From positions 1-34,671 of the forward strand of contig JADQBC010000029.1 in the NCBI GenBank assembly GCA_016903655.1: a DNA stretch of 34,671 bases, in the 5' to 3' direction. Positions 6,484 to 34,356 of this stretch are shown in pieces (the stretch's first letter is position 1; each line of letters begins with the position of its first letter). The position numbers were made by a program, and so were the translations under genes. The notes beneath the pieces are model-generated. The model made no database searches and was not told where the DNA came from. It saw only the letters and a list, made by a program, of their open reading frames with translations. The DNA is from Gomphosphaeria aponina SAG 52.96 = DSM 107014 (lineage in GTDB: Bacteria > Cyanobacteriota > Cyanobacteriia > Cyanobacteriales > Gomphosphaeriaceae).

Positions 6484-6530
6484 GGTTAAAACAGCCCTGC
6501 GCTCCTGCGGGGGGGTTGGGCAGGTAACAC
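6484..6530. repeat. GC-rich dispersed repeat, copy 1
   Basis: On the minus strand this reads GTTACCTGCCCAACCCCCCC, then GCAGGAGCGCAGGGCTGTTT, ending TAAC. The plus-strand segment at about 34083-34127 has the same layout (GTTA, C-tracts, then GCAGGGCTGTTT). Two copies in one window point to a dispersed family. Confidence 0.6.
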
Positions 6531-12318: not shown

Positions 12319-12683
12319 GATTTTAACCTCACTTTACATACCATTGCCAATTGATAAACTTTTAACACACAATAATGGTTAATGGTTGATGGTTCATAGT
12401 TGATGGTTCATAGTTGATGGTTCATAGTTGATGGTTGATGGTTGATGGTTCATAGTTGATGGTTGATGGTTGATGGTTGATGGTTAATGCATAATGAATA
12501 ATGAATAAAAGATAATGTCTTCTATCAAGAAGAAAACTATGATCCACCGTAAAAAGTAAACAATTATACTTGTTAAACGAACCGTGCTTTAGTCAATAAT
12601 TTCTGAGATGCTTCGCTCTTCGATCACAATGACATTTTAAGAAGTTTCGCTCATTAGTCTAATCAACCATTAACCATTAACCA
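12319..12683. other. Repeat-filled intergenic region
   Basis: 365 bp without a gene. A long heptamer array (12374-12485) and a second array of the same heptamer type in inverted orientation (12665-12699, running into the GT39 gene) flank about 180 bp. That spacer holds a segment (GAGATGCTTCGCTCTTCGAT and following) that looks like a dispersed repeat. I see no promoter that I would defend. Confidence 0.6.
12374..12485. repeat. STRR heptamer island, 16 units
   Basis: Sixteen uninterrupted 7-bp units: two AATGGTT, then mixtures of GATGGTT and CATAGTT (order includes three alternating GATGGTT/CATAGTT pairs, then runs of GATGGTT). 16 x 7 = 112 bp with no indel. The two-letter alternation shows variants spread by unit duplication. 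Confidence 0.92.
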
Positions 12684-19985: not shown

Positions 19986-21014
19986 CTACCGCTCTGTGTC
20001 ATCAGGAAATAAAGGTTGTAGGGGCTCTGTTCGTGGTGGGACTGGTTGGTTTTCAGGAAATAAAGGCTCAAGACGCTCAGGTGGTTTTTCTAATTCAGGT
20101 TGTGGCGGTTGCTGTGGTGGTTGCTGTTGCAGTCCTTCCCTTTCTAATTGAGCTTCTTGGCGTTTTTTCTCTTCCTCTTGAGCTTGACGCTCTCTCTCTA
20201 GTTGTTGTTGGCGATCGCGTGCTTGACGGTCAAAGTCTGACCCAGCAACAGTAAAGTTAACTGTAAGTTGCACCAAGGCGCGAGTATTACTCCCAGGAGA
20301 ACTAAATTTCATTTTACTAGCTGCGCGGAGTACCTGTTGATTGATCTGACTATTACTATTCTGTCTTACAAGAGTTACGCTAACCACATTGCCATTTTCA
20401 TCCACCACAATTTCTACAGCGGCACTACCTTCTGCTCCATCTAGTACCGATGGATAAGTAGGTTGACAGTTTTTAACACAACTTATTCCCTCTACTACAG
20501 CAGGCGGTTCAGGTTTTGCTGAAGGTTCCCTCGCAGCTATTTGTGGGCCCACTTTAGGTTTTACTTCCCCCTCATTTTGAGACACTGGAGGAGTAGAAAC
20601 AACATTTTCACTCGGAGCAACTTGAGTCATTGGTTGTGGTGCCCGCTCAACTTGCGGTTTGAGCGGTGTGGGAGTGGTAACTTTTGCTGGGGGTGTTGGC
20701 GCAGGTTTTGGTTTTTGTACCTGATTTTGAAGCGGCATCGGTTTGGGTGGAGTAACAGGTTTAGGTATTGGCTTAGGTTTTGGCGGCTCTGGTGGCTTTT
20801 CTTCCTTCGGTTTTGGTGGTTCTAGTGTAGGTTGCTCCACCATAATCAATTCAATGGGTTTTTCAGCCATGCTAGGCTTTTCGTACTGCCAACTCAGCCC
20901 AGGCAAGATGATGAGGTGTAGAAGCACCGAACCAACAAAACTCAGCGCCAGCACTTTTTGGCTCTGGTTTTGTTCTTTTTGGCGTTGATTGATACAGAAG
21001 CTTGAATTAGACAT
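19986..21014 (-). CDS. tonB: TonB energy transducer with unusual C-terminal extension
   Basis: A 342-aa inner-membrane protein linking ExbBD to outer-membrane receptors. One N-terminal helix (about 20-42) has the S-x3-H pattern (SVLLH, 29-33) typical of TonB. A long Pro/Lys/Glu periplasmic spacer runs from about 50 to 175 (repeated PPKPK). A TonB C-terminal domain lies at about 175-257 (YPSVLDGAEGSAAVEIVVDENG). The odd part is the last 85 residues: a charged, Gln-rich probable coiled coil (262-295), then a Pro-rich tail with the related units EPLFPEN and QPLFPDD. Classical TonB ends at its C-terminal domain. AGGG precedes the ATG at 21014. It is divergent from exbB, completing the Ton complex. 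Confidence 0.93.
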   Translation of the reverse strand: MSNSSFCINQRQKEQNQSQKVLALSFVGSVLLHLIILPGLSWQYEKPSMAEKPIELIMVEQPTLEPPKPKEEKPPEPPKPKPIPKPVTPPKPMPLQNQVQKPKPAPTPPAKVTTPTPLKPQVERAPQPMTQVAPSENVVSTPPVSQNEGEVKPKVGPQIAAREPSAKPEPPAVVEGISCVKNCQPTYPSVLDGAEGSAAVEIVVDENGNVVSVTLVRQNSNSQINQQVLRAASKMKFSSPGSNTRALVQLTVNFTVAGSDFDRQARDRQQQLERERQAQEEEKKRQEAQLEREGLQQQPPQQPPQPELEKPPERLEPLFPENQPVPPRTEPLQPLFPDDTER

Positions 21015-21330
21015 ATTTTCCCTGGATTGGCAAAAAGCTATTGATATTAAGTTTCAGCTTTAGTAGAGCTACAGACTCTAGCTCTCTTCTAATTTTTACA
21101 ATCTTTTGGGACTAATTTGCAATCGTCCAGCTCGACCAAGCCACAAATTTTGCTCTCCGCCACTCAAAACTACCTATTTACAAGGCTTTTGAGTCACATT
21201 TAACTTATCCTTAACCTTTTTTAACAAAAAAAAACTTGACAATTATTGAGAATCTCTTTTAATATGTTTTCTATGCTTGGCTTGAGAATAAGCTAAGAAA
21301 GTTTATCAATAAACATCGCCGACCCAGTCC
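21015..21330. other. Divergent promoter region between tonB and exbB
   Basis: 316 bp without a gene. It holds the exbB promoter with a Fur-like sequence (21236-21265) and, near tonB, a hairpin AGAGCTA / TAGCTCT (21065-21071 / 21079-21085) in the probable tonB leader. A clear tonB promoter could not be chosen. Confidence 0.6.
21236..21265 (+). promoter_or_regulatory. Sigma-70-type promoter of the exbB operon with Fur-like site in the spacer
   Basis: TTGACA at 21236-21241 and TAATAT at 21260-21265, spacing 18 bp. The spacer reads ATTATTGAGAATCTCTTT; TGAGAAT matches six of seven positions of the TGATAAT half-site of the Fur box. Binding there would block RNA polymerase under iron sufficiency. 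This fits a TonB iron-uptake operon. The operator is inferred; the second half-site is poor. Confidence 0.65.
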
Positions 21331-21999
21331 ATGCCAAACAACTTAAACAATTTATTGGAGTTATTCAAAGCAGGTGGCATTGTCGCCTGGCCCTTACTGG
21401 GATTTTCTTTGTTAGCCGTTGCTCTTAGTATTGAGCGCATCTGGTTTTGGTTTCGCATTAAGTCTCAGCAGAAAAAAGTCGTCAAAGAGGTGCTAAGGCT
21501 TTATCGCAGTGAAGATAGCGTGACGGCGATGGAAAAGCTTAAGGAAAATGCAGCCTTACCCATTGCTCGTATATTTCTAGAAGCTTTGGAGTTGGAAGAG
21601 CCTACCCCCGAAGAGTTTCGCCTTGCTCTTGAAAGCGCAACTCAAGCAGAATTACCTGACTTAAAACGGTTTAATACGCTGTTTCAGACGATTATCACGG
21701 TTTCGCCTCTATTAGGGCTGTTGGGGACAATTTTGGGGTTAATGCATTCTTTTGCAAGTCTTAATATTGGTAATGCAAGCGCAACAGATAGGGCAGGAGT
21801 CACTGGAGGAATTAGTGAAGCCTTGGTTTCGACGGTTATGGGATTGGTTGTGGCAATTTCTACTCTTCTGTTTGCTAACGCCTTCCGCTCCTTTTATCAG
21901 CGTCAAATCGGTTTGATTCAAGAATATGGCGGTCAATTGGAATTGCTCTATTGCCGTATTTATTACAAAAAAGGCGGAAAAACCTATGCGGATTACTAA
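21331..21999 (+). CDS. exbB: ExbB proton-channel subunit (MotA/TolQ/ExbB family)
   Basis: A 222-aa inner-membrane protein with three hydrophobic segments: about 16-33, 114-137 (TIITVSPLLGLLGTILGLMHSF) and 155-180 (GGISEALVSTVMGLVVAISTL). The latter two line the ExbB pentamer pore around ExbD. ExbB-ExbD use proton-motive force to energise TonB. Membership in the iron locus, pairing with exbD and the divergent tonB argue for ExbB rather than TolQ. It is the first gene of the long operon, 66 bp after the promoter. Its last 14 bp overlap exbD. Confidence 0.93.
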   Translation: MPNNLNNLLELFKAGGIVAWPLLGFSLLAVALSIERIWFWFRIKSQQKKVVKEVLRLYRSEDSVTAMEKLKENAALPIARIFLEALELEEPTPEEFRLALESATQAELPDLKRFNTLFQTIITVSPLLGLLGTILGLMHSFASLNIGNASATDRAGVTGGISEALVSTVMGLVVAISTLLFANAFRSFYQRQIGLIQEYGGQLELLYCRIYYKKGGKTYADY

Positions 22000-22390
22000 T
22001 GAATCTGAAGAATTTGCAGGAGAAATCAATATCGTGCCGATGATTGATGTTATCTTTTCTATTCTTGCTTTTTTTATCATTTCTAGTTTGTTTTTAAGCA
22101 GAACAGAAGGACTGCCAGTTAATCTTCCTTCAGCTTCAACAGCAGAAGTTAAAGATACTGCCCAAATTAACGTAACTATCGAAGCAGATGGGGATATTTT
22201 TTTGAATCGTCAACCGATTAAGCTTGAAAGTCTTAAGCAAGCAACTATTGCTGAAATAGCAAAGGAAAAAGAAGGTTTAGTAATTATTAATGCAGATGAA
22301 AAAGTAGAGCATGGTCAGGTGGTGGAGGTGATGGATATTCTGCGTCAAGTAGAAGGGGCAAAATTGGCGATCGCTGCTACTAAAAAGTAA
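21986..22390 (+). CDS. exbD: ExbD, TonB-complex periplasmic subunit
   Basis: A 134-aa ExbD/TolR protein. It has a short cytoplasmic N-terminus, one helix at about 20-40 carrying the essential aspartate (PMIDVIFSILAFF, Asp21), and a periplasmic domain. The ORF track starts at 21926, but that would extend 60 bp into exbB with unrelated sequence. The ATG at 21986, preceded by AGGCGG, gives the standard MRITNESEEFAGEINIVPMID. The 14-bp overlap with exbB suggests coupled translation. It works with ExbB in a fixed-stoichiometry motor that converts proton flow into TonB movement. Confidence 0.94.
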   Translation: MRITNESEEFAGEINIVPMIDVIFSILAFFIISSLFLSRTEGLPVNLPSASTAEVKDTAQINVTIEADGDIFLNRQPIKLESLKQATIAEIAKEKEGLVIINADEKVEHGQVVEVMDILRQVEGAKLAIAATKK

Positions 22391-22419
22391 ACAACAACTA
22401 TTAATTATTAGGGAGAAAA

Positions 22420-23157
22420 ATGAAAAAAAAAATTAAATCAGTAAAATTATTTTTTGCTTTAACTATTGCTACCACCATTAGTTTATCTAGCACTAAAACT
22501 GTTCAAGCAGTAGATAAAAGCACAAATAATAATGTGGAGACAAGGGGCGCCATCCTCTTGTTAGCGGAAACATTAAGCCCAGGAGAACAAGCTAATGCTG
22601 ATTTTCAGGACAAACTTAGTGGGGCAGAATTATTAGCTGCATTACAGCAAGGTGGTTATGTAATTTATTTTAGACACGCCCAAACTGAAAAAGATTATGC
22701 AGATCAGGTTAGTGCAGTGGTGGGCGATTGTTCTACACAAAGAATGCTGAGTGAAACAGGATGGCAACAAGCAAAAGCTATTGGTGCAGGATTTAGAGAT
22801 AATAACATTCCTGTGGGGCAGGTAATATCCAGTCAGTATTGTCGTGCTTGGCAAACCGCAGATTTAGCTTTTGGAAAGTATGAGAAAAATGGTGATCTGA
22901 ATTTTCCACCCGCAGAAGAATACACCCCAGAACAAGTAGCTCAGATGAAAGCATTATTGACGCCAATGTTAATTGCTGTACCCGCAAGTGGAACCAATAC
23001 AGTAATTGTCGGTCACGATGACCTTTTTGAAGCAGCAACAGGTATTTATCCCGATCCACAAGGAATGGCTTACGTTGTGAAACCTGACGGTCAGGGAGGT
23101 TTCGAGCTTGTGGCTAATATGCTGCCAGAAGAATGGGCGCAATTAGGCAGTAATTAA
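22420..23157 (+). CDS. Exported histidine phosphatase superfamily protein
   Basis: A 245-aa protein with a clear signal peptide (basic MKKKIK, hydrophobic 8-23, cleavage near TVQA at 30). The domain is histidine phosphatase branch 1: FRHAQTE with catalytic His86 (usual RHG replaced by RHA), SSQYCRAWQTA with Arg142, and IVGHDD with His199. The catalytic set is therefore complete. It would act in the periplasm on a phosphoester whose identity is unknown. Position between exbD (29 bp upstream) and the first PepSY gene, with a good ribosome binding site (GGGAGA), makes it part of the operon. A role in treating phosphorylated chelates or nutrients delivered by the receptors is speculation. Confidence 0.88.
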   Translation: MKKKIKSVKLFFALTIATTISLSSTKTVQAVDKSTNNNVETRGAILLLAETLSPGEQANADFQDKLSGAELLAALQQGGYVIYFRHAQTEKDYADQVSAVVGDCSTQRMLSETGWQQAKAIGAGFRDNNIPVGQVISSQYCRAWQTADLAFGKYEKNGDLNFPPAEEYTPEQVAQMKALLTPMLIAVPASGTNTVIVGHDDLFEAATGIYPDPQGMAYVVKPDGQGGFELVANMLPEEWAQLGSN

Positions 23158-23197
23158 AAGCAATCATAATGTAGAGTTGAATTTTGAATATAAGCTC

Positions 23198-24313
23198 ATG
23201 CGCAAGCAGAAAAAACTACGCCAATTAGCTTTAATTTTGCACCGTTATGCAGGCATAATTCCAGGTATTTTACTTGTTATTATTGGTATAACAGGAAGTT
23301 TACTTATCTGGGCTGAACAAATTGACAGTTTTCTCAATGCTCAGTTACTAAAAGTCACACCAAATTCAACTCAAATAAACATTCAAACAGTGATAGATAC
23401 TGCTCAAAAGTACTATCCAGATTTTCAAGTTCATCGGATTATTGTTCCTCAAAAATCCGATGAAGTTTATACAGTAATGATGATTTCTCCAGAGGATGAA
23501 TTGAGGGATGTTTATCTTAATCCTTATAACGGTGAAATTACGGGTGAGCGTCCGTGGAACGAAAGTATAGGAGGGTTTTTAATTGAACTCCATGTCAATC
23601 TTTTTGCAGGAGATATTGGGGAAAAAATAGTAGGTATTTGTGGCGGTATTTTCTGGTTAATTAGTATCACGGGAATAATGCTCTGGCGGGGTTGGTTTAA
23701 GTTGAAAAATGCGCTTAAAATTAGATGGCGATCGCCTTACCAAATCATCAACTACGACTTACATCAAGTGGTTGGCATTGTTTCTGTAATTATTTTAATT
23801 TTACTAGCTTTTACTGGTGCAGCCATGATTTTTTGGACTCCTGTTGAGAGTTTTGTTTATAGCATCACTAATACTCCATTACTTGATGCTGAAATTCAAT
23901 CAGAAATTGTAGCTAATGTTGAGCCATTAAAAATAGAAGATATTTTACAAAAAGCCAAAACAAAATTCCCTGAAGGTGAAATTTTAAAGGTTTTTCCTGC
24001 TAAACAACCAGAAGATCCAGTGGTTATTTGGATGGAATTACCAAAAGAAAATGAATTTAACAAAACCCCCTGGTTATCTTTTGACCAATATACAGGAGAA
24101 GTTTTACAGATAGATAACGGGAAAGAAAACTCTCTTGCTAGTCGAATAATGAATGGATTAGCTGTTATTCATTTTGGCAAATATGGAGGGATAGTAACAG
24201 AAATTATTTACTTTTTAGTAGGTTTAGCTCCTCTTATTCTTTTAATTACAGGTTTAGTAATCTGGCAACAACACCGCTGGCATTTAGCGAGAAAAGGCAG
24301 ATTAATTCAATGA
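23198..24313 (+). CDS. PepSY-associated TM protein 1 (PiuB/FoxB-like, probable ferric-chelate reductase)
   Basis: A 371-aa inner-membrane protein with four main helices: about 9-40 (LHRYAGIIPGILLVIIGITG), 140-165, 190-220 and 320-350. PepSY-like periplasmic segments lie between them. Histidines sit at the helix starts (LHRYAG, ELHVNLF, DLHQVVG, IHFGKYGG), the pattern of the PepSY_TM family. Members such as FoxB reduce ferric siderophores in the periplasm using heme, while PiuB is linked to iron uptake. The ORF track begins at a TTG (23177); the ATG at 23198 gives MRKQKKLRQLALILHRYAG, matching the paralog, and is preferred although its ribosome site is weak. It is followed 29 bp later by a TonB receptor, as is its paralog. 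Confidence 0.85.
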   Translation: MRKQKKLRQLALILHRYAGIIPGILLVIIGITGSLLIWAEQIDSFLNAQLLKVTPNSTQINIQTVIDTAQKYYPDFQVHRIIVPQKSDEVYTVMMISPEDELRDVYLNPYNGEITGERPWNESIGGFLIELHVNLFAGDIGEKIVGICGGIFWLISITGIMLWRGWFKLKNALKIRWRSPYQIINYDLHQVVGIVSVIILILLAFTGAAMIFWTPVESFVYSITNTPLLDAEIQSEIVANVEPLKIEDILQKAKTKFPEGEILKVFPAKQPEDPVVIWMELPKENEFNKTPWLSFDQYTGEVLQIDNGKENSLASRIMNGLAVIHFGKYGGIVTEIIYFLVGLAPLILLITGLVIWQQHRWHLARKGRLIQ

Positions 24314-24342
24314 AATTTACTTGTTATATGTTTTAAATAATT

Positions 24343-26832
24343 ATGAAAATATTTACACTTGTTTTGTTATCTGGTTTAATAATTTGTCCCGTTTTTATGG
24401 AAGTAAAACTGGTAAAAGCTGAAGCAACAACTAGCATTAAAAGAGTAAATGATTTAGATAAATACCATAGTTCAGCTAGATGGTTAGTACAAACATCAAA
24501 TCAACCTGTGGTAATAACAGGAGTACAAGTAAACCCAACAGAAACAGGGTTAGAAATTGTGTTAAAAACTCCTGCTGATTCCACTCTGCAACCTTTGATT
24601 TTTGCAGAAGAAAATACCTTAATTATTGAGATTTTGGGTGCAGTTTTACAATTACCAGAAGAGTCAGAGTTTCGGGTAGAAAATCCCAACTCAGAAACAA
24701 CAGAAGTAACAGTTACTCAATTAGATGTTAACAGTATTCGCATTACCATTACAGGAAAAGAAAGAGTACCCCGTGCTGTGGTAAAACCAAGCGAGGAAAA
24801 TTTAGTTTTGAGTGTGACTCCTTCAACAACAACAAGAGAAACTCCCCGTGAAGAAATAGAAGTGGTAGCAACAGGAGAACAAGAAGAAAGTTATTTTGTT
24901 CCCTCAGCTTCAACAGCGACAAAAACAGATACTCCTATTTTTGATACACCCGCATCAATTCAAATTATTCCGCAAGAAGTAATTCGCGATCAAGGGGCTA
25001 CCAGTGTTAGGGAAGCCTTGCGTAATATAAGTGGAGTTACATTGTCTAGTACATCAGGCGGTCGAGGTGAAAACTTTATTATTCGGGGGTTTGTTGCTGA
25101 AGAATTTATTAATGGTTTTCGGGATGATTTTTACTCTAATCGAACTCAAAGAGATTTAGCAAATATTGAACAAATAGAAGTATTAAAAGGCCCTGCTTCA
25201 GTTTTGTTTGGTAGAGCAGAACCTGCAGGGATTATTAACTACATCACGAAAAAACCTTTACTTGAGCCTTACTATGAGCTTAATTTTAGTGCTGGTAGTT
25301 ATAACTTTTATCGTTCAACCCTAGACTTTTCCGGACCAATAACAGCAGATAAAACTTTAGCATATCGGTTAAATATTGCTTATGAAAATGCTGAGAGTTT
25401 TCGAGATGGAGTAGAAACAGAGAGAATTTTTGTTGCTCCAACTTTTCAATGGGAAATTACTAATAAGACTAAGTTGCGTCTAGAGTTTACTTATCTCCAT
25501 GATGAGCGACCTGTAGATCGAGGTTTAGTGGTTTTAAGTGATAATGAAGTTGCTGATATTCCTATTAGTCGTTATCTTGGCGATCCAAGACAAATGAAGT
25601 TTGATCAAACTCGACTAACTTTATATTTTGATCATAACTTTAATGAAAACTTATTTTTAAAATCGGCTTTTCGCTACACCTATGCTTATGAAGGTGGCCC
25701 AGGTGCAACAACTCAAATTGTCGGATCATCCCCAGACGATCGCAATTTTCCGCTAGAAGATTATAGCGGGAGACAAGACTATGAAACCTGGTCATTTCAA
25801 AATGATTTAATCGCTAAATTTAAGACTGGATCTATTGAACATACTGGGTTAATTGGCATAGAATTTAGCCGCCAGTATAACTATTTTGGTTTTCAGAGTC
25901 GTTCTGCAGGAACTATTGATATTTTTGAACCTAACTATAACTTTGTTTTTGGAGAGTTTAGCCCTTTTGTAGATGGAGAAAATCAAATTACTGCTTTTGG
26001 AATCTATTTACAAGACCAAATTAGTTTATTAAAAAATCTCAAATTAGTAATTGGTGGGCGCTTTGATACATTTACCGATGAAGGGTATTTTGATGTAGAT
26101 AATTTTGAGACTAATGCTGATGCTTTTTCGCCACGAGCGGGGATTGTCTATCAACCGATTCCACAAGTTGCTCTTTATGCTAGTTATAGTCAATCATTTA
26201 CGCCTGTAAGTGGTAGAAGTGCTAATGATAAAGCTTTTGAGCCTCAAAGTGGAACAGGTTATGAAGTAGGGGTGAAAACTGAATTGTTAGAAGGTCGTTT
26301 GTTTTCTACCCTAGCTTTTTATCGCACAAATTTGAGCAATATTTTAACTGATGACCCGAATAATCCTGGGTTTTCTATTCAGGTAGGCGAACAACGTTCT
26401 CAAGGGATTGAATTAGATTTTACTGGGGAAATTTTACCTGGTTGGAACATAATTGCATCCTATGGCTATACTGATGCTTTTATTGTTAAAGATAACACCT
26501 TTCCTGAAAACAATAGTCTTAATAATGTTCCGAGAAATACTGCTAGTTTATGGACGACTTATACCCTGCAAAAAGGAACCTTAGCAGGTTTAGGATTTGG
26601 AGCAGGAATATTTTATATAGATGAACGGGCTGGGGATTTGGATAATTCTTTTTATGTCCCTAGTTATACTCGCGTAGATTTCTTGATTTCTTATGAAACT
26701 GAAAAACTGCGCGCTGCTATTAATTTCAAAAATGTTTTTGATGTTCGCTATTATGAAGGTTCTCAAAGTCGGGAAGTAGTTCAACCTGGGGCACCATTTA
26801 CAGTTTTAGGAACATTTTCTTGGAAGTTTTAA
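24343..26832 (+). CDS. TonB-dependent siderophore-type receptor 1 with AMIN domain
   Basis: An 829-aa outer-membrane receptor. It has a signal peptide to about residue 26 and the conserved stretch DLDKYHSSARWLVQTS. An AMIN-like domain (about 57-155) is followed by a Thr-rich linker, a TonB-box candidate EEIEVVATGE (171-180), a plug (about 198-310; IEQIEVLKGPASVLFGRAEP) and a 22-strand barrel ending in Phe (TFSWKF). The plug motif PASIQIIPQEVI and the overall length match siderophore/ferric-chelate receptors. AMIN at the N-terminus is a cyanobacterial habit and is thought to hold proteins to peptidoglycan or partners. The ligand is not predictable. Operon position: 29 bp after PepSY 1 and 23 bp before PepSY 2. 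Confidence 0.94.
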   Translation: MKIFTLVLLSGLIICPVFMEVKLVKAEATTSIKRVNDLDKYHSSARWLVQTSNQPVVITGVQVNPTETGLEIVLKTPADSTLQPLIFAEENTLIIEILGAVLQLPEESEFRVENPNSETTEVTVTQLDVNSIRITITGKERVPRAVVKPSEENLVLSVTPSTTTRETPREEIEVVATGEQEESYFVPSASTATKTDTPIFDTPASIQIIPQEVIRDQGATSVREALRNISGVTLSSTSGGRGENFIIRGFVAEEFINGFRDDFYSNRTQRDLANIEQIEVLKGPASVLFGRAEPAGIINYITKKPLLEPYYELNFSAGSYNFYRSTLDFSGPITADKTLAYRLNIAYENAESFRDGVETERIFVAPTFQWEITNKTKLRLEFTYLHDERPVDRGLVVLSDNEVADIPISRYLGDPRQMKFDQTRLTLYFDHNFNENLFLKSAFRYTYAYEGGPGATTQIVGSSPDDRNFPLEDYSGRQDYETWSFQNDLIAKFKTGSIEHTGLIGIEFSRQYNYFGFQSRSAGTIDIFEPNYNFVFGEFSPFVDGENQITAFGIYLQDQISLLKNLKLVIGGRFDTFTDEGYFDVDNFETNADAFSPRAGIVYQPIPQVALYASYSQSFTPVSGRSANDKAFEPQSGTGYEVGVKTELLEGRLFSTLAFYRTNLSNILTDDPNNPGFSIQVGEQRSQGIELDFTGEILPGWNIIASYGYTDAFIVKDNTFPENNSLNNVPRNTASLWTTYTLQKGTLAGLGFGAGIFYIDERAGDLDNSFYVPSYTRVDFLISYETEKLRAAINFKNVFDVRYYEGSQSREVVQPGAPFTVLGTFSWKF

Positions 26833-26855
26833 TCACCAATTAAAGGAGTTTGAAA

Positions 26856-27983
26856 ATGAAAACAAAACAAATTAGAAATTGGGCTTTTATTCTCCATCGC
26901 TATCTCGGTTTAGTCATCGGAATCATTACAGTAATTATTGGTTTAACTGGAAGCATATTAGTTTTTTATCCAGAAATGGATGAGTTTTTAATTACTCAGA
27001 AATTTGGCAAAATTACGCCGCAAGGGGAACAAGTTTCTGTGACGATTATTGCTGAGAAAATTAAAGATACTTATGGGAGTTCATTGTTACTAGAGTCCCT
27101 CAATTTTCCCGCCAAACCAGATAAACCAATGCAAGCTTGGTTAGCATCTTCTGATGGAAAATGGACAGAAGCATATATAAATCAATACACAGGAAAAATT
27201 CTAGGCGATCGCCAATGGGAAACCAGCTTGTTTGGATTTATTTATCAAATTCACTACCAACTTTTAGCAGGGGATATTGGCGTAATAATTGCGGGAATTG
27301 TGGCTTTTTTCCTATTTATTTTAAGTTTAACTGGGATAATGCTCTGGCCAGGTTGGCGCAAGTTAATTGCTGGTTTTAAAATTAAATTCAAAGCTCATCC
27401 TAAAAGAACCAATTTTGACCTGCATAAAGTAATTGGAATTGTCACAGCAATTTTCTTAGGAATGATTGGTTTAACGGGGTTTTGTTGGAATTTCTATGCA
27501 CAGACTGAACCACTAATTTATGCCGCAACCCTAACACCAAAACCCACCCCTCCAGTTTCTCAACCTTTGCCAGATAAATCTTCTTTAAGTATAGAAGAAA
27601 TACTTAAAAAATCAGATGCCGCTTTACCAGATGCAGAGACTGTTGGTTTATCCTTTCCACAAAGTCCAGAAGGAGTTTTTCGAGTGAGGAAACGCTTTCA
27701 AGAAGAACCCATAAAAGGCAGGAGTGCTGTTTATTTAGATCAATTTACAGGGAAAGTTTTACAAGTTGATAATGCGCTTCAACCCTCCAGAGCTCAAGCT
27801 GTTTTAAATTCTTTTGGCCCTTTACATTTTGGTACATTTGGTGGGTTGCCAACTCGCATTTTTTATGTGTTTGTGGGATTAGCTCCTGCTATTTTATTTG
27901 TTACTGGTTTAATTATGTGGTGGTATCGTCCCAAGCGGAATAAAAACAAGTCTATCTCAGTAAGAGAGTTGTCCAAGTTGTAA
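26856..27983 (+). CDS. PepSY-associated TM protein 2 (PiuB/FoxB-like, probable ferric-chelate reductase)
   Basis: A 375-aa paralog of the PepSY protein at 23198 with the same four-helix plan: LHRYLGLVIGIITVIIGLTG, QIHYQLLAGDIGVIIAG, DLHKVIGIVTAIFLG and LHFGTFGGLPTRIFYVFVG. The histidines in each helix start are kept. The sequences are otherwise clearly divergent, especially in the periplasmic parts, so this is an old duplication. AAAGGAG sits seven bases before the ATG at 26856, which decides the start over the TTG at 26850 listed by the ORF track. Expected to act in the inner membrane on ferric chelates arriving through a neighbouring receptor. The next receptor begins 34 bp downstream. Confidence 0.86.
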   Translation: MKTKQIRNWAFILHRYLGLVIGIITVIIGLTGSILVFYPEMDEFLITQKFGKITPQGEQVSVTIIAEKIKDTYGSSLLLESLNFPAKPDKPMQAWLASSDGKWTEAYINQYTGKILGDRQWETSLFGFIYQIHYQLLAGDIGVIIAGIVAFFLFILSLTGIMLWPGWRKLIAGFKIKFKAHPKRTNFDLHKVIGIVTAIFLGMIGLTGFCWNFYAQTEPLIYAATLTPKPTPPVSQPLPDKSSLSIEEILKKSDAALPDAETVGLSFPQSPEGVFRVRKRFQEEPIKGRSAVYLDQFTGKVLQVDNALQPSRAQAVLNSFGPLHFGTFGGLPTRIFYVFVGLAPAILFVTGLIMWWYRPKRNKNKSISVRELSKL

Positions 27984-28017
27984 AAGTGTGATTTTTAATT
28001 GTGGTGTGATAATAAAC

Positions 28018-30591
28018 ATGAAAGTATATAGATTTTTCCTTTTATTCGGACTAATAATTTGTCCCTTTGTAATGGAGGTAAAACCCGTTAAAGCTGACAA
28101 GGGGCTGACTCCCCTTGTCTCACCGCCCAGAGTAAGTGATTTAGATAATTACCATACTCAAGCCAGATGGTTAGTACAAACATCAACTGTAATAGTCACA
28201 GGAGTGCAAGTAAACCCAACAGAAACAGGGTTAGAAATTGTGTTAGAAATTCCTCCTGACCAAACTGTACAACCATTGATATTTTCAGAAGAAAATACTC
28301 TAATTATTGACATTTTGGGTGCAGTTTTACAGTTACCAGAAAGCGAAGAATTTCGGGTTGAAAATCCCAACTCAGAGACAACAGAAGTAACAGTTACTCA
28401 ACTAGATGCTGAGAGTATTCGCATTACCATCACGGGGAAAGAAAGAGTACCCATAGCAGAGGTAAAACCATCGGCAGATAACTTAGTTTTGAGTGTGACT
28501 CCTTCTTCTTCAACAAGAGAAACTCCCCGCGAAGAAATAGAAGTAGTAGCAACAGGAGAACAACAACAAGAAAGTTACTTTGTTCCCAATGCCAGCACAG
28601 CTACTGGAACTGATGCACCTATCATGGAAACTCCTTTTTCTGTGAAGGTTGTACCCCAAGAAGTTATCCGCCAACAACAGGCGATTCGCATTCAGGACGT
28701 ATTAAGCAATGTAAGTGGTGTAGTTTCTGGGGGGAGTTCTCAAGGACGAGGTATTAACTTCAATATTCGCGGGTTTGGCACTCCTTCAGGCTCTTCTGTT
28801 CCCGTTTTAAAAGATGGGTATCGAATCTATGGGGTTTTTGTTCCTGCTCCTGAAACTGCTAACCTCGAACAGGTAGAAGTTCTCAAAGGCCCTGCTTCAA
28901 TTCTGTATGGAGAGATTGAACCTGGGGGTATTATTAATCTGGTGTCTAAGAAACCATTACCTCAGTTTTTTAATGAAATAGAACTTCAAGTTGGGGAGTG
29001 GGGACTGGTGCGCCCCAGATTTGATCTTACAGGGCCAATAGATAGCAATGGCAATTTATTGTACCGCTTGAATGGGTTATATAAACACGAGTGGAGTTTT
29101 AGGGACTTTGACAGGGCAATGGAGCGGTATTCAGTTGCGCCAGTTTTGGCCTGGAAAATTGGTAATAACACTGATGTACTGTTTTCTGTGGAATATATCA
29201 ACGATACTGGCCCTGCGGATTTTGGGCTTGTGAAATATGGTGATGGTGTGGCACCGATTCCAAGAACGCGGGTTATTAACAACCCAGATGATACAGTTGA
29301 CACAGACTCTCTGAGTGCTGGCTATAGCTTTGAACACCGCTTTAATGAGAACTGGAAACTGCGCAATAGTTTTCGCTATCTCAGCTATAACTTTGACTTC
29401 AGTGTTGTTGCTCTTCCTGGTTTTTTTGCTGATGATAGGACTTTTGTCCGCTTTTGGGCCAATCAAGGTGGTCAACAGCGCTCCTATTCTTTTTACACTA
29501 ATGCGGTGGGCAAATTTGCCACAGGTTCTATTAACCATGAGTTGTTAGTAGGAATTGACTTAAATCATAGTGAGGATAGGATTACCACACGCTTTGGCGA
29601 GGAGTCTCCCATCGATATCTTTAACCCAGACTACAATATAGTTCCAAAACCATTACGCTCTGAGTTACCCCTCTTTGGTGATACGACTAACGAAGCCGAT
29701 CGCTTGGGAATTTATCTCCAAAACCAAGTTTATTTCTTGGATAATTTGATTTTGGTCGCAGGGGTCCGTTATGACACTGTTACCCTAAAAACCACCAATG
29801 CCCAAACCGATTTGACTGATGCAGGTGAGTCGGAACAAACCGATGATGCTTTTATCCCCAGGGTAGGTCTGCTTTATCGCCTCATTCGCGAACTTTCTCT
29901 GTTTGCTAATTATTCTCAGTCTTTTAGGCCGAGCACACAAACAACAGCTAGTGGTGAAGCCTTAGAACCTGAAAGAGGAAAAGGCTTTGAAGTGGGTGTG
30001 AAAACAGAATTATTTCAGAAAAAGTTACTGGCAACACTGACTTATTTTGATATCACCAAAGAGAATGTTGTGGTTACAGATCCAGCTAATCCTTTTTTCT
30101 CCATTGCAGCGGGAGAACAACAGAGTCAAGGGTTTGAATTGGATGTTACTGGGGAGATTTTACCAGGTTGGAAGATTATTGCATCTTACTCATATATTGA
30201 TGCCAAGGTGACAGAAGATACGGATCCTAGTTTGGTTGGCAATCGTTTATTTGGTGTGCCTTACAACATGGCGAGTTTGTGGATGACTTATGAAATTCAA
30301 TCAGGAGCTTTACAAGGTTTGGGTTTTGGAGCAGGTTTGAATTATGTGGGCGATCGCTTTGGTGATTTAGCAAATACTTATACAGTGGGTGACTATTTTA
30401 TTGGTAATGCAGCTATTTTTTATCAGCGCGATTGCCCAAGGGGCAAGGCCTGCGGCCATCGCTATCGTTTCGCTCTTAATTTCAGAAACATTTCCGATGC
30501 TGATTACATTGAAGCAGTAGCAGGAATTGATAGCAGTATTGAACCAGGTCAACCGTTTACCGTAATTGGTTCATTTTCAGTGGAATTTTAA
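28018..30591 (+). CDS. TonB-dependent siderophore-type receptor 2 with AMIN domain and in-frame repeat insertion
   Basis: An 857-aa receptor starting at the ATG 28018 (MKVYRFFLLFGLIICPF); the TTG start at 27988 in the ORF track adds ten unlikely residues. The order is signal peptide, AMIN-like domain, TonB box EEIEVVATGE, plug (ETPFSVKVVPQEVI, LEQVEVLKGPASILYGEIEP) and barrel ending SFSVEF. Compared with receptors 1 and 3, it carries about ten additional residues (CPRGKACGHR) near the C-terminus. These are encoded by a palindromic repeat at 30428-30462. The barrel remains open. It lies between PepSY 2 and the 230-aa exported protein (15 bp). The ligand is unknown. Confidence 0.93.
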   Translation: MKVYRFFLLFGLIICPFVMEVKPVKADKGLTPLVSPPRVSDLDNYHTQARWLVQTSTVIVTGVQVNPTETGLEIVLEIPPDQTVQPLIFSEENTLIIDILGAVLQLPESEEFRVENPNSETTEVTVTQLDAESIRITITGKERVPIAEVKPSADNLVLSVTPSSSTRETPREEIEVVATGEQQQESYFVPNASTATGTDAPIMETPFSVKVVPQEVIRQQQAIRIQDVLSNVSGVVSGGSSQGRGINFNIRGFGTPSGSSVPVLKDGYRIYGVFVPAPETANLEQVEVLKGPASILYGEIEPGGIINLVSKKPLPQFFNEIELQVGEWGLVRPRFDLTGPIDSNGNLLYRLNGLYKHEWSFRDFDRAMERYSVAPVLAWKIGNNTDVLFSVEYINDTGPADFGLVKYGDGVAPIPRTRVINNPDDTVDTDSLSAGYSFEHRFNENWKLRNSFRYLSYNFDFSVVALPGFFADDRTFVRFWANQGGQQRSYSFYTNAVGKFATGSINHELLVGIDLNHSEDRITTRFGEESPIDIFNPDYNIVPKPLRSELPLFGDTTNEADRLGIYLQNQVYFLDNLILVAGVRYDTVTLKTTNAQTDLTDAGESEQTDDAFIPRVGLLYRLIRELSLFANYSQSFRPSTQTTASGEALEPERGKGFEVGVKTELFQKKLLATLTYFDITKENVVVTDPANPFFSIAAGEQQSQGFELDVTGEILPGWKIIASYSYIDAKVTEDTDPSLVGNRLFGVPYNMASLWMTYEIQSGALQGLGFGAGLNYVGDRFGDLANTYTVGDYFIGNAAIFYQRDCPRGKACGHRYRFALNFRNISDADYIEAVAGIDSSIEPGQPFTVIGSFSVEF
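30428..30462 (+). repeat. Palindromic cyanobacterial repeat inserted inside a receptor gene
   Basis: GCGATTGCCCAAGGGGCAAG followed by GCCTGCGGCCATCGC. Outer arms GCGAT/ATCGC pair; internal TTGCCC/GGGCAA and GGCC-TGC-GGCC also fold. The GCCTGCGG core resembles the repeat at 34593-34625. The sequence is far more GC-rich than the surrounding gene. Confidence 0.75.
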
Positions 30592-30606
30592 TTTAAGGAG
30601 ATCAAC

Positions 30607-31299
30607 ATGAAATCTATTTCTCTATTTTTACCTCTAATCTCTCTGTTGCTAATTTTCGGATATCAGTCTAATTCTACTGCTAATTCTAGTGGAGAAAGTT
30701 TTAATGAGGAAATGTATCTTTTTGCTAATCCTGATGTTGCTGAGTTGATTAAACAGGGTAAATATGAATCAGGATTAGATCATTATATCCAAGTTGGACA
30801 AACTGCCACAAAACCTGATGGGGAACATTATGCAAGTTTCTTTACAGGAACAGATGGTAATGATATGGTTCGCGTAGTTGGAACAGGACAACACAATCAT
30901 GTTATGGGAGTAGGTTTGGAAATTGTTTCAACTCAAGAAGATGATGATTTTCCCGTGGGTTTCAAGAGTTTAGGTGAAGGTGAAATTGATGTTTTGATCG
31001 GCACAATAGGAGGAGTAAATGAGTTTGTTTTAGGGAGTTTTATTACTTCTGTTAATCCTACTCCTCAGCCATTTTATGTCGGTCAAGGTGATCAAGATTA
31101 CGCAAAGATTCAAAATTTTACGAAAGGAAAAGATATGATTGTTTTAGCAGGAAACCCTGACCAATATCAATGGGAATCTATTGATGGTAATGTGCGCATT
31201 TCTACAAGCAGTGGCGATTTAGTGGCAATTGTTGAGGCGATGGACAATTTAGAAATAGAAGAAGTGTACGAAGATGTTGGCATATTTATTTTGAAATAA
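30607..31299 (+). CDS. Exported RTX-like protein of unknown function in the TonB operon
   Basis: A 230-aa protein with a signal peptide (hydrophobic 5-19, then Ser/Thr/Asn-rich). Residues about 34-66 (YLFANPDVAELIKQGKYESG, then LDHYIQVGQ) match the short module known from many cyanobacterial secreted proteins with the pattern YLxxNPDVA..G..SG..HY...G. Residues about 78-230 look like a single degenerate RTX-type, calcium-binding-protein C-terminal unit: GTDGND (81-86), GEGEIDVLIGTIGGVNEFVLG (123-143), YAKIQNFTKGKDMIVLAG (165-182) and SGDLVAIVEAMDNLEI. Asp/Asn-rich turns could bind calcium. It lies 15 bp after receptor 2 and 25 bp before receptor 3, so it is cotranscribed with them. Ligand capture near the receptors is an inference. 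Confidence 0.82.
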   Translation: MKSISLFLPLISLLLIFGYQSNSTANSSGESFNEEMYLFANPDVAELIKQGKYESGLDHYIQVGQTATKPDGEHYASFFTGTDGNDMVRVVGTGQHNHVMGVGLEIVSTQEDDDFPVGFKSLGEGEIDVLIGTIGGVNEFVLGSFITSVNPTPQPFYVGQGDQDYAKIQNFTKGKDMIVLAGNPDQYQWESIDGNVRISTSSGDLVAIVEAMDNLEIEEVYEDVGIFILK

Positions 31300-31324
31300 A
31301 AAAAACATTAGGTGTGAGTAAAAA

Positions 31325-33838
31325 ATGAAACTATATCGACTTTTGCTGTTGTCTGGATTAATAATTTGTCCCTTTGTAATGGAGGTAAAACTGGTAAGAT
31401 CTGAACCAATCAAATCAAAAGAAATAACCGAAATAAAGAGAGTTAATGATTTAGATAATTACCATACTGAAGCCAGATGGTTAGTACAAACATCAACTGT
31501 AATAGTCACAGGAGTGCAAATAAACCCAACTGAAACAGGGTTAGAAATTGTGTTAGAAACTCCTGAAAAAACAGGACTCCAGCCCTTAATTTTTGCTGAA
31601 GAAAATACCCTAATTATTGACATTTTAGGAGCAGTTTTACAGTTACCAGAAGGAGAAACTTTCAGAGTAGAAAATCCAAACTCAGAGACAACAGAAGTAA
31701 AAGTAAATCAATTAGATGCTAACAGTATTCGCATTACCATAACAGGGAAAGAAAGAGTACCCATAGCAGAGGTAAAACCATCAGAAGATAACTTAGTTTT
31801 GAGCGTGACTCCTTCTTCTGCAACAAGAGAAACTCCCCGCGAAGAAATAGAAGTAGTCGCAACAGGAGAACAGGAAGAAAATTACTTTGTTCGCGATGCA
31901 AGTACAGCTACTGGAACTGATACACCTATTTTTGATATTCCCCAATCAATTCAAGTTGTACCTCAAAGAATAATTAGGGACCGTAACGTTACCGAGTTAG
32001 GAGACGCTTTAGAAACCGTACCAGGTGTAGTTTCAGCAGGTGGAAGAGGAACAAGTGCTTTTGGGCCAGGGTTAATCATTCGTGGTTTTCCAGTTACAGA
32101 GAGTATTTTTCGGGATGGTATCCCTTTCTTTTCTTTATCACCTCTGAGTACCAATGATATCGAAAGCATTGAGGTATTAAAAGGGCCAGCTTCAGTATTA
32201 TTTGGGGATGGGGAACCAGGAGGAACTATTAATTTAGTTTCCAAAAAACCCTTAGCTGACCCCTTTTATTCTGCATCATTTACCGCAGGAAATTTCAACA
32301 CTTATCGAGGGGATATAGATATTTCTGGACCGCTGAATAAGGCAAAAACAGTTAAATATCGTTTGAATTTATCTTATGAAAACTATGGAAGTTTCCGCGA
32401 CTTTGTAGATGGAGAGCGCTGGGTTGTTTCTCCTACTCTTACCTGGGATATTGGCCCCAAAACCTCGATAAATTTTTACGGTCAATATACATATAACAAT
32501 GAAACCATAGATGAGGGACTTCCCGCATCAGGAGATAGAATAGTTAATGTACCGCGCGATCGCTTTTTAGGAGAAGATTTTGCAGAATTTGAACAAGATC
32601 AATTTAATCTGGGCTATACATTTAATCATCAATTCAATGAAAATTTGGAAGTCAGACACGCTTTACAATACTTACAATACGAGCCTGTAAGATACGCTCC
32701 CTTGTTTGATTTCTTTGATGAAGAAACAGGGGAACTTTCTCGGCTTGAATATGCCGCTGGCGGAACTTACAAAAGATTTTTTACCAATGCAGAAGTTATT
32801 GGCAAATTCAACACAGGTTCAGTTAAACATCAAGTTTTGTTTGGGGTTGAGTATCGCAACTATAGTGAAGATCCAAGTTTTCAATTCAGCAATCTTTACA
32901 CCTCAATTAATGTTTTTGACCCAATTTATACTGGCATACCTTTTGCCATTGCTCCCGAATTTTTTCGGGATGATAATATTGACAGAATTGGGGTTTATAT
33001 TCAAGACCAAATTGATTTATTACCCAATCTCAAACTATTAGCAGGAATCCGTTATGATTATGCTAGTCAATTTAGGACTACACGAAATTTAGGCGAACCA
33101 AGAGAAGAATTTGAGCAAACAGACGATGATTTTTCCCCGCGAGTTGGAATTGTCTATCAACCCATTCCCGTCCTGGCAATTTATGGGTCTTATACAACCT
33201 CTTTTAATCCTGCCTTTGCTGCAAGTCGTAACCCTGATGATTCCACTTTTGACCCAGAAACAGGAGAACAATTTGAAGTAGGAATTAAAGCGAATTTAAG
33301 CGAACAAGTAAGCTTAACTTTTGCCGCTTTTGAGATTAAAAAACAAAACCTATCTACACAAGATCCAAATAACCCAGCTTTCTCTATTCAAACAGGAGAA
33401 CAAACAAGTCGGGGAATAGAAATTTATTTTGGTGGAGAACTTTTACCAGGTTGGAACTTAATTGCAGGTTATACTTATTTAGACGCTTATGTTAGTAAAG
33501 ACAATACAGAAATAGAAGGAAATAGTCTGGAGAATGTGCCAGATTATCAATTTAGTTTGTGGACAACCTACGAAATTCAACAAGGAAATTTAGAAGGTTT
33601 AGGCTTTGGTTTAGGACTATTTTATGTTGATAAAAGACCAGGAGATTTAGATAACAGTTTTACTATTCCTAGCTATTTGCGCACCGATGCTGCTTTATAT
33701 TACAGACGAGATAGATGGGGACTTCAGTTAAATATTGAAAACCTTTTTGATGTGGAGTATTTTTCCTCAGCAGGTTTTAGAAGTGCAACCCCTGGGGCAC
33801 CTTTTACGGTTTCAGGGAAAGTTACTGTTGAATTTTAG
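31325..33838 (+). CDS. TonB-dependent siderophore-type receptor 3 with AMIN domain
   Basis: An 837-aa outer-membrane receptor and the last gene of the operon. It has a signal peptide (MKLYRLLLLSGLIICPF), the shared DLDNYHTEARWLVQTS stretch, and an AMIN-like domain almost identical to those of receptors 1 and 2. The TonB box candidate is EEIEVVATGE. The plug contains DIPQSIQVVPQRII and IESIEVLKGPASVLFGDGEP, and the barrel ends GKVTVEF with the terminal Phe required for assembly. The barrel is clearly different from its paralogs, so a different ligand is likely. There is no PepSY gene directly in front; the 230-aa exported protein takes that place. Confidence 0.94.
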   Translation: MKLYRLLLLSGLIICPFVMEVKLVRSEPIKSKEITEIKRVNDLDNYHTEARWLVQTSTVIVTGVQINPTETGLEIVLETPEKTGLQPLIFAEENTLIIDILGAVLQLPEGETFRVENPNSETTEVKVNQLDANSIRITITGKERVPIAEVKPSEDNLVLSVTPSSATRETPREEIEVVATGEQEENYFVRDASTATGTDTPIFDIPQSIQVVPQRIIRDRNVTELGDALETVPGVVSAGGRGTSAFGPGLIIRGFPVTESIFRDGIPFFSLSPLSTNDIESIEVLKGPASVLFGDGEPGGTINLVSKKPLADPFYSASFTAGNFNTYRGDIDISGPLNKAKTVKYRLNLSYENYGSFRDFVDGERWVVSPTLTWDIGPKTSINFYGQYTYNNETIDEGLPASGDRIVNVPRDRFLGEDFAEFEQDQFNLGYTFNHQFNENLEVRHALQYLQYEPVRYAPLFDFFDEETGELSRLEYAAGGTYKRFFTNAEVIGKFNTGSVKHQVLFGVEYRNYSEDPSFQFSNLYTSINVFDPIYTGIPFAIAPEFFRDDNIDRIGVYIQDQIDLLPNLKLLAGIRYDYASQFRTTRNLGEPREEFEQTDDDFSPRVGIVYQPIPVLAIYGSYTTSFNPAFAASRNPDDSTFDPETGEQFEVGIKANLSEQVSLTFAAFEIKKQNLSTQDPNNPAFSIQTGEQTSRGIEIYFGGELLPGWNLIAGYTYLDAYVSKDNTEIEGNSLENVPDYQFSLWTTYEIQQGNLEGLGFGLGLFYVDKRPGDLDNSFTIPSYLRTDAALYYRRDRWGLQLNIENLFDVEYFSSAGFRSATPGAPFTVSGKVTVEF

Positions 33839-33967
33839 GGATTTAATCCACATAATTGCAAGTCAATTAAGTAGATAAGCTTGCATTATTTACACAATTT
33901 CTTACGGGGCGGGTTTAGCCTTGATCGAGCTGAGTAATTAGATCTAAGAGCGAAATTACGAAAAACT

Positions 33968-34026
33968 GTCATCAGTCTGCGCCAGCGTTGGATCTCGGAG
34001 ATCCAACGCTGGCGCAGACTGATGAC
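33968..34026. repeat. 59-bp near-perfect palindrome (29-bp arms, 1-nt centre)
   Basis: GTCATCAGTCTGCGCCAGCG continuing to GGATCTC is followed after a single G by its exact reverse complement. All 29 bp pair. No T-run follows, so it is not a standard terminator, although an RNA copy would fold strongly. Confidence 0.95.
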
Positions 34027-34040
34027 CATTTTAAGTTTGG

Positions 34041-34079: not shown

Positions 34080-34110
34080 AGTGTTAACCCCCCCTACCCC
34101 CCCCGAGCCC

Positions 34111-34356
34111 GCAGGGCTGTTTCATTTAAAAATTTAAGGCTTTTTAAAACCCTTAAAATCTAACGGTTTCAGGCTTATATTTCTAACAATTTGGGTAAAA
34201 TTAACAAAAATCGTTATTATTGCTTTTATATTTACAAAAAACTACATATGCTTAAGCATTGATTTATAAAAATTAGTTATTTAAGTATTTAATTTAAAAT
34301 ATGCTGATTTAGATTAATAATCTATTTAACTGCAAGCGTAAAATGAAACAGCCCTG
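34111..34356. mobile_element. MITE-like element with 17-bp terminal inverted repeats
   Basis: GCAGGGCTGTTTCATTT (34111-34127) and AAATGAAACAGCCCTGC (34340-34356) pair perfectly and enclose about 210 bp of very AT-rich DNA without an ORF. No target-site duplication is obvious in the direct flanks. The left end also belongs to the GC-rich repeat seen at 6484-6530. Confidence 0.55.

Follow-up and report, generated by a model that had tools for sequence, protein, structure and literature searches.

A palindromic repeat inside a TonB-dependent receptor gene

The window, i.e., the whole stretch of 34,671 nucleotides of Gomphosphaeria aponina DNA analysed here, carries at 19986–33838 a gene cluster whose products resemble TonB, ExbB, ExbD and two PepSY-type membrane proteins (these five recognized by eye), together with three AMIN-type TonB receptors sharing around 50% mutual identity. 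The receptor genes are the following:

24343–26832, forward strand: receptor 1, a paralogue without the insert
27988–30591, forward strand: receptor 2, a TonB-dependent siderophore receptor (AMIN, plug and barrel), from Pfam, NCBIfam and Foldseek
31325–33838, forward strand: receptor 3, a paralogue without the insert

Receptor 2 more likely starts at the ATG at 28018 than at the GTG at 27988. It contains the Pfam domains TonB_dep_Rec_b-barrel (3.3e-71), Plug and AMIN, exceeds the cut-off of NCBIfam TIGR01783, and its model matches FhuA, FoxA and enantiopyochelin transporters in Foldseek.

At 30428–30462, in frame within this second receptor gene, the letters read GCGATTGCCCAAGGGGCAAGGCCTGCGGCCATCGC. 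The initial annotation had seen there an interspersed 35-bp palindrome, and the repeat is real: in the whole genome (3.67 Mb in 146 contigs, 76% complete) we counted 7 exact copies and 32 with at most three mismatches, the reversed pattern giving none. Within the window the unit is single (one match versus none in 100 shuffles). Not all of the 35 bp is inserted DNA, as had been supposed: 27 nt are inserted, and the outer eight belong to their target, the HIP1 octamer GCGATCGC. The unit is built as follows:

30428–30462, forward strand: 35-nt palindromic unit, a HIP1 octamer split by a 27-nt element, with an outer 5-bp stem and two hairpins (from the sequence, the 7 exact genomic copies, the fold and covariation)
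30428–30432, forward strand: GCGAT, left part of the split HIP1 target (by analogy with a nucleosidase pair on contig C140, one paralogue of which has the octamer intact)
30433–30459, forward strand: inserted 27 nt, TGCCCAAGGGGCAAGGCCTGCGGCCAT, nine whole codons C-P-R-G-K-A-C-G-H (from homologues without the nine residues and a filled and empty mini-transposon pair)
30433–30445, forward strand: hairpin 1, TGCCC-AAG-GGGCA (from covariation of pairs 6-18 and 9-15, numbered within the 35-nt unit)
30447–30457, forward strand: hairpin 2, GGCC-TGC-GGCC (closing pair 20-30 covaries)
30460–30462, forward strand: CGC, right part of the split HIP1 target (from the same nucleosidase pair)

The block is missing in all 13 aligned homologues of receptor 2 and in the further homologues compared, and none of these, distant orthologues included, has the residues without the repeat DNA. 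The alignment also bears out that receptors 1 and 3 lack it. Relative to receptor 2, the gap measures nine residues in cyanobacterial homologues and eight or nine in proteobacterial ones; empty sites read YNRNRYRFALN, YQRDKYRVALN, YQRDRWRAAIN and, in one relative (L028), GCGATCGT, cyanobacterial ones being of the type YQRD|RYRFALN. When the 27 nt are removed from receptor 2, TAT CAG CGC GAT CGC TAT CGT remains, i.e., Y-Q-R-D-R-Y-R. About ten added residues, CPRGKACGHR, had been proposed; nine of them (CPRGKACGH) are indeed added, while the final R belongs to the target site.

In the model of receptor 2 (mean pLDDT 81), the insert occupies residues 804–812 of the 855-aa query and fits exactly between two strands, 791–803 and 813–821; pLDDT is below 50 at 806–810. 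Two cysteines and several basic residues are thereby added in a short turn, as first described. The C-terminus of TonB-dependent receptor barrels is periplasmic and, counting strands back from it in the model, the nine residues probably lengthen a periplasmic turn. Hence, where the turn had been said to face the periplasm or the medium, barrel topology makes the periplasm the likelier side.

Filled and empty sites

Insertion can be read directly where a filled site has an empty counterpart. On contig C140, two nucleosidase genes share around 92% identity over 626 nt, and at the site the only difference between them is the 27 nt: the filled copy reads GAACGGGCG-27 nt-ATCGCTTATTTC, its octamer being split as GCG-27 nt-ATCGC, and the empty one GAACGGGCGATCGCTTATTTC, with HIP1 intact. 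Close homologues of the nucleosidase in other genomes likewise lack the nine residues; a comparison with the PDB gave matches not strong enough to cover the insert. Another host gene of the same genome has a paralogue on contig C7 without the nine residues, and at a further locus (L062) insertion is probable, the insert lying within a variable linker. For the host ORF on contig C114 (L092) no homologue was found in relatives, so that insertion is unproven there, and the MobC homologue that we compared is too diverged to give a clean gap. A pair of related genes, on contigs C28 and C96 (L060 and L061), has the element at the same site; the C28 copy is decayed, and the insertion is thus probably older than the duplication.

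A second filled and empty pair is provided by a mini-transposon with ends ATTAGACATCTCC and GGAGATGTCTAAT, of which 16 copies contain the same 27 nt and 2 do not. Its junction is CTCGCT-[TGCCC...GGCCAT]-CGTAG when filled and CTCGCTCGTAG when empty (CTCGCT joined to CGTAG). At HIP1 itself, the registers 3/4, 4/5 and 5/6 are indistinguishable, but the mini-transposon pair favors 4/5 or 5/6; register 3/4, the one reported for SDR5, would demand extra changes in this pair. In receptor 2, an insert at 30432–30458 is equally compatible with one at 30433–30459, and 30431–30457 is disfavored by the same pair.

A constrained two-hairpin structure

We examined covariation in 54 distinct variants, comprising the Gomphosphaeria family of the repeat and its relatives. 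Paired cells made up 97.2% of the total, with 44 double-side changes against a shuffled mean of 14.4; none of 500 shuffles reached the covariation score, which falls in every slid version. Pair 9-15 is GC in 29 variants and CG in 19; pair 6-18 is UA in 38, CG in 4 and GC in 1; and pair 20-30 is CG in 28, UA in 12 and GC in 7. The two-hairpin structure is thus supported by covariation and its compensatory changes. The window copy folds as RNA into exactly the proposed shape (−16.1 kcal/mol, z −1.44), single-sequence folding being modestly better than that of shuffles (z −1.4 to −1.7). Length varies little: with hairpin 1 free to vary and 32–40 nt permitted, 131 of the 137 matches, which come from 18 genomes, measure 35 nt.

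Pair 6-18 (columns 6 and 18 of alignment A1) is often broken by a change from T to C on its left side. As this change restores GCGATCGC at the left edge of the element, it agrees with a bias that repeatedly generates HIP1.

Distribution and target sites

HIP1 is abundant in this DNA, with 21 occurrences in the window against around 0.2 expected from base composition by our arithmetic, and 0.65 per kb over 133 kb of stretches from the same genome. The repeat had been called intergenic; some copies do lie between genes, and others are found in ORFs and inside two longer repeats. Around ten copies flanked by HIP1 share nothing beyond it, their surroundings being unrelated. Non-HIP1 locations are also used, i.e., TCGCTCGT of the mini-transposon, with 16 copies, and a few other sites, so that the target looks looser than HIP1.

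The inner 30-mer is present in 36 copies in the Gomphosphaeria aponina genome and in none of 59 other genomes of the order. When pairs 6-18, 9-15, 10-14 and 20-30 were left free, 64 of the order's 391 genomes gave matches, spread over 42 of 150 genera, and the reversed control gave none. Among the 391, the version of stem and loop sequences described here (G-C closing pair, GGCCTGCGGCC hairpin) occurs only in this genome. Annotated plasmid records show mobC, MobF relaxase and peptidase M23 genes with copies inside or overlapping them.

A probable SDR5-like mobile repeat

A repeat that is dispersed, inserts as precisely 27 nt, keeps a constrained structure and is tolerated in genes is very probably a non-autonomous, very small mobile element of the SDR5-like kind, which entered HIP1 at, or directly beside, the centre of its dyad and is tolerated in receptor 2. 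The element would enter at GCGA^TCGC or GCGAT^CGC. Its moving form may be a structured single-stranded nucleic acid, placed in trans by a putative host or transposon function acting at HIP1. When the HIP1 site lies within a gene, entry of the 27 nt would add nine residues and leave the gene unbroken.

SDR5 reportedly occurs exclusively in HIP1 and is said to measure 21–27 nt. According to the account in PMC4390886, which cites Elhai et al. (2008, Genome Res 18:1484), this small dispersed repeat of Nostoc punctiforme and relatives is inserted precisely within HIP1, between the third and fourth nucleotides. Our element resembles it as a very small structured dispersed repeat inside HIP1, its 27 nt fit that size range, and its secondary structure shows compensatory changes. 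Moreover, a 35-nt unit that splits HIP1 and shares the two-hairpin layout is found on nostocacean plasmids, e.g., in Trichormus variabilis ATCC 29413. On the other hand, the stem and loop sequences of our repeat, with the G-C closing pair and hairpin given above, are different; its register seems to be 4/5 or 5/6 instead of 3/4; and it is not exclusive to HIP1. Because this exclusivity is lacking, the register seems shifted and the sequence family is confined to one genome, we set the repeat apart, by description, from SDR5 itself: it is a lineage-specific SDR5-like family whose closest known relative by description is SDR5.

Other small repeats are more remote. The Rickettsia palindromic elements (RPE) reportedly go back to Ogata et al. 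in 2000. They are palindromic mobile repeats found in frame in genes, at least one host gene being still functional; they measure around 105–150 nt, and the reviews PMC2229807 and PMC10969869 describe no octamer target. Our repeat shares with them the dispersed palindrome in frame in genes whose homologues lack it, but it is 27 nt long, targeted to HIP1 and open in six frames. Cyanobacterial MITEs such as Nezha are likewise non-autonomous dispersed repeats, and some of our copies ride in one; however, the 27-nt element is far smaller, and neither terminal inverted repeats beyond the split target nor a target duplication was seen.

REP/REPIN palindromes, moved by a RAYT (IS200/IS605-like) transposase, are the alternative that fares best, even if it is unlikely. 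Such palindromes are short, reach high copy numbers and are presumed to be mobilized in trans; our repeat is also short, structured and dispersed, and apart from the split target it shows no terminal inverted repeats. Nevertheless, the two large REP superfamilies are marked by GTAG or CGTC tags (PMC3733652), which are missing from the sequence of the 35-nt unit, and REPs are mainly extragenic, which the 27-nt element is not.

Reading frame and tolerance in genes

The window copy of the insert is free of stops in all six frames, as are the inserts of 47 of the 54 variants. With nine codons and no stop in any frame, entry into a genic HIP1 stays in frame and adds nine residues; that receptor 2 has kept its reading frame, as initially noted, is thus not luck. 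Since 35% of shuffled inserts are open in six frames too, this openness is partly due to GC-richness, and we considered and dropped the idea that it is an adaptation in itself.

Different host genes read the element differently. The frame DCPRGKACGHR is used in receptor 2 and in a TonB_C protein on contig C8, and other frames of the same genome give AIAQGARPAAIA (nucleosidase), RLPYGQGLRPS (C96) and GRWPQALPLGR (C130). In the TonB_C protein (L051:1296–2408), the element, read in the frame of receptor 2 (GDCPRGKACGHRF), lies directly past the membrane anchor.

Copies in other genomes lie within open frames of at least 200 aa in 38 of 51 cases (75%), against 48 of 61 for HIP1 (79%) and 75% for random positions, in samples that are small and non-random, many being the first copies listed per genome. 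Neither excess nor depletion in genes was found for these 51 copies, and most of them are genic because most HIP1 sites lie in genes. The earlier view that intergenic repeats rarely enter genes without disruption is not supported for this class. Off-length copies (33, 34 and 36 nt), however, were not in gene interiors by the criterion applied (0 of 6, versus 39 of 69 copies of 35 nt; Fisher p = 0.0097, in a similarly small, non-random sample). Hosts of the related repeats include NRPS, PKS, Cas3, WD40, Uma2 and histidine kinase genes. A dTMP kinase with the insert exceeds the TIGR00041 equivalog cut-off, and its nine residues, located immediately before DRIEQE, are missing in PDB homologues.

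The insert had been called domesticated. The nine residues might have been retained as helpful, e.g., through a Cys-x5-Cys disulfide or a basic patch altering behavior on the TonB side. The two cysteines and the basic residues of a probably periplasmic turn, and the same peptide read in the same frame by the TonB_C protein on contig C8, would suit this idea, and a disulfide between the cysteines can be speculated upon. But copies fall in genes at the same rate as HIP1 sites and random positions do, unrelated genes obtain different peptides from different frames, and the insert is a low-confidence part of the receptor model. Domestication is therefore very unlikely: nothing shows a benefit, and related elements are genic as often as HIP1. 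We infer that the nine residues are tolerated in receptor 2 rather than useful.

Beyond this genome, SDR5-type repeats could constitute a cyanobacteria-wide, frame-safe mobile DNA, with a nine-codon length, a mostly genic octamer target, inserts mostly free of stops in six frames, and selection against off-length genic copies. We advance this tentatively, at a little short of an even chance. If true, such repeats would put nine-residue tags into proteins, even into essential enzymes; they would rank among about the smallest known mobile elements that code for protein, and would provide cyanobacterial proteins with a steady supply of short loops. That nine residues are added by such repeats in proteins of many cyanobacteria bears on annotation, on protein alignment and on the interpretation of clade-specific inserts.

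Copies inside longer repeats

The mini-transposon is around 80–120 nt long and has at least 18 copies, on contigs C140, C65, C1, C2, C31 and others (L053, L063–L079, L173). A second, longer dispersed repeat (GGGCGGGTTTGGATTTTTTGCTCAATTGCGATCGCC ... AACCCGCCCC...AAAATTGTGTAAATAAT) contains the element in its middle, and there the stems are more diverged (L057, L059, L067, L072, L087, L088 and L089).

With 16 copies in the former and around seven in the latter, one may ask whether the element spreads only as a passenger of larger mini-transposons, helped by gene conversion and without any insertion of its own. The HIP1-flanked copies with unrelated flanks, and the nucleosidase pair that differs at the site by nothing but the 27 nt, make this highly improbable. 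There is virtually no chance that the residues are an old native loop of this receptor branch, palindromic in its DNA by accident: the frame is intact and such residues would suit a turn, but the identical 35-mer stands at six other places of the genome in unrelated contexts, and the residues are missing from every homologue compared. An SDR5-like element inserting by itself thus stays the preferred reading, and its base-exact filled and empty sites make the movement of such tiny elements testable, as to target register, structure and host factor.

Other repeats of the window

The window contains further repeats. Tandem heptamer arrays (ATGGTTG or ATAGTTG, and complement) lie at 12361–12500 and 2865–2909 and are typical cyanobacterial short tandem repeats. 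Downstream of receptor 3, a near-perfect inverted repeat with 35-nt arms and a 1-nt spacer (33962–34032) is followed by another (ACTTTCGCACTCATGTCTA / TAGACATGAGTGCGAAAGT). Finally, a GC-rich stretch (AAACAGCCCTGCG...) is present in two copies in inverted orientation, at 6489–6530 and 34081–34122, and is probably another dispersed repeat.
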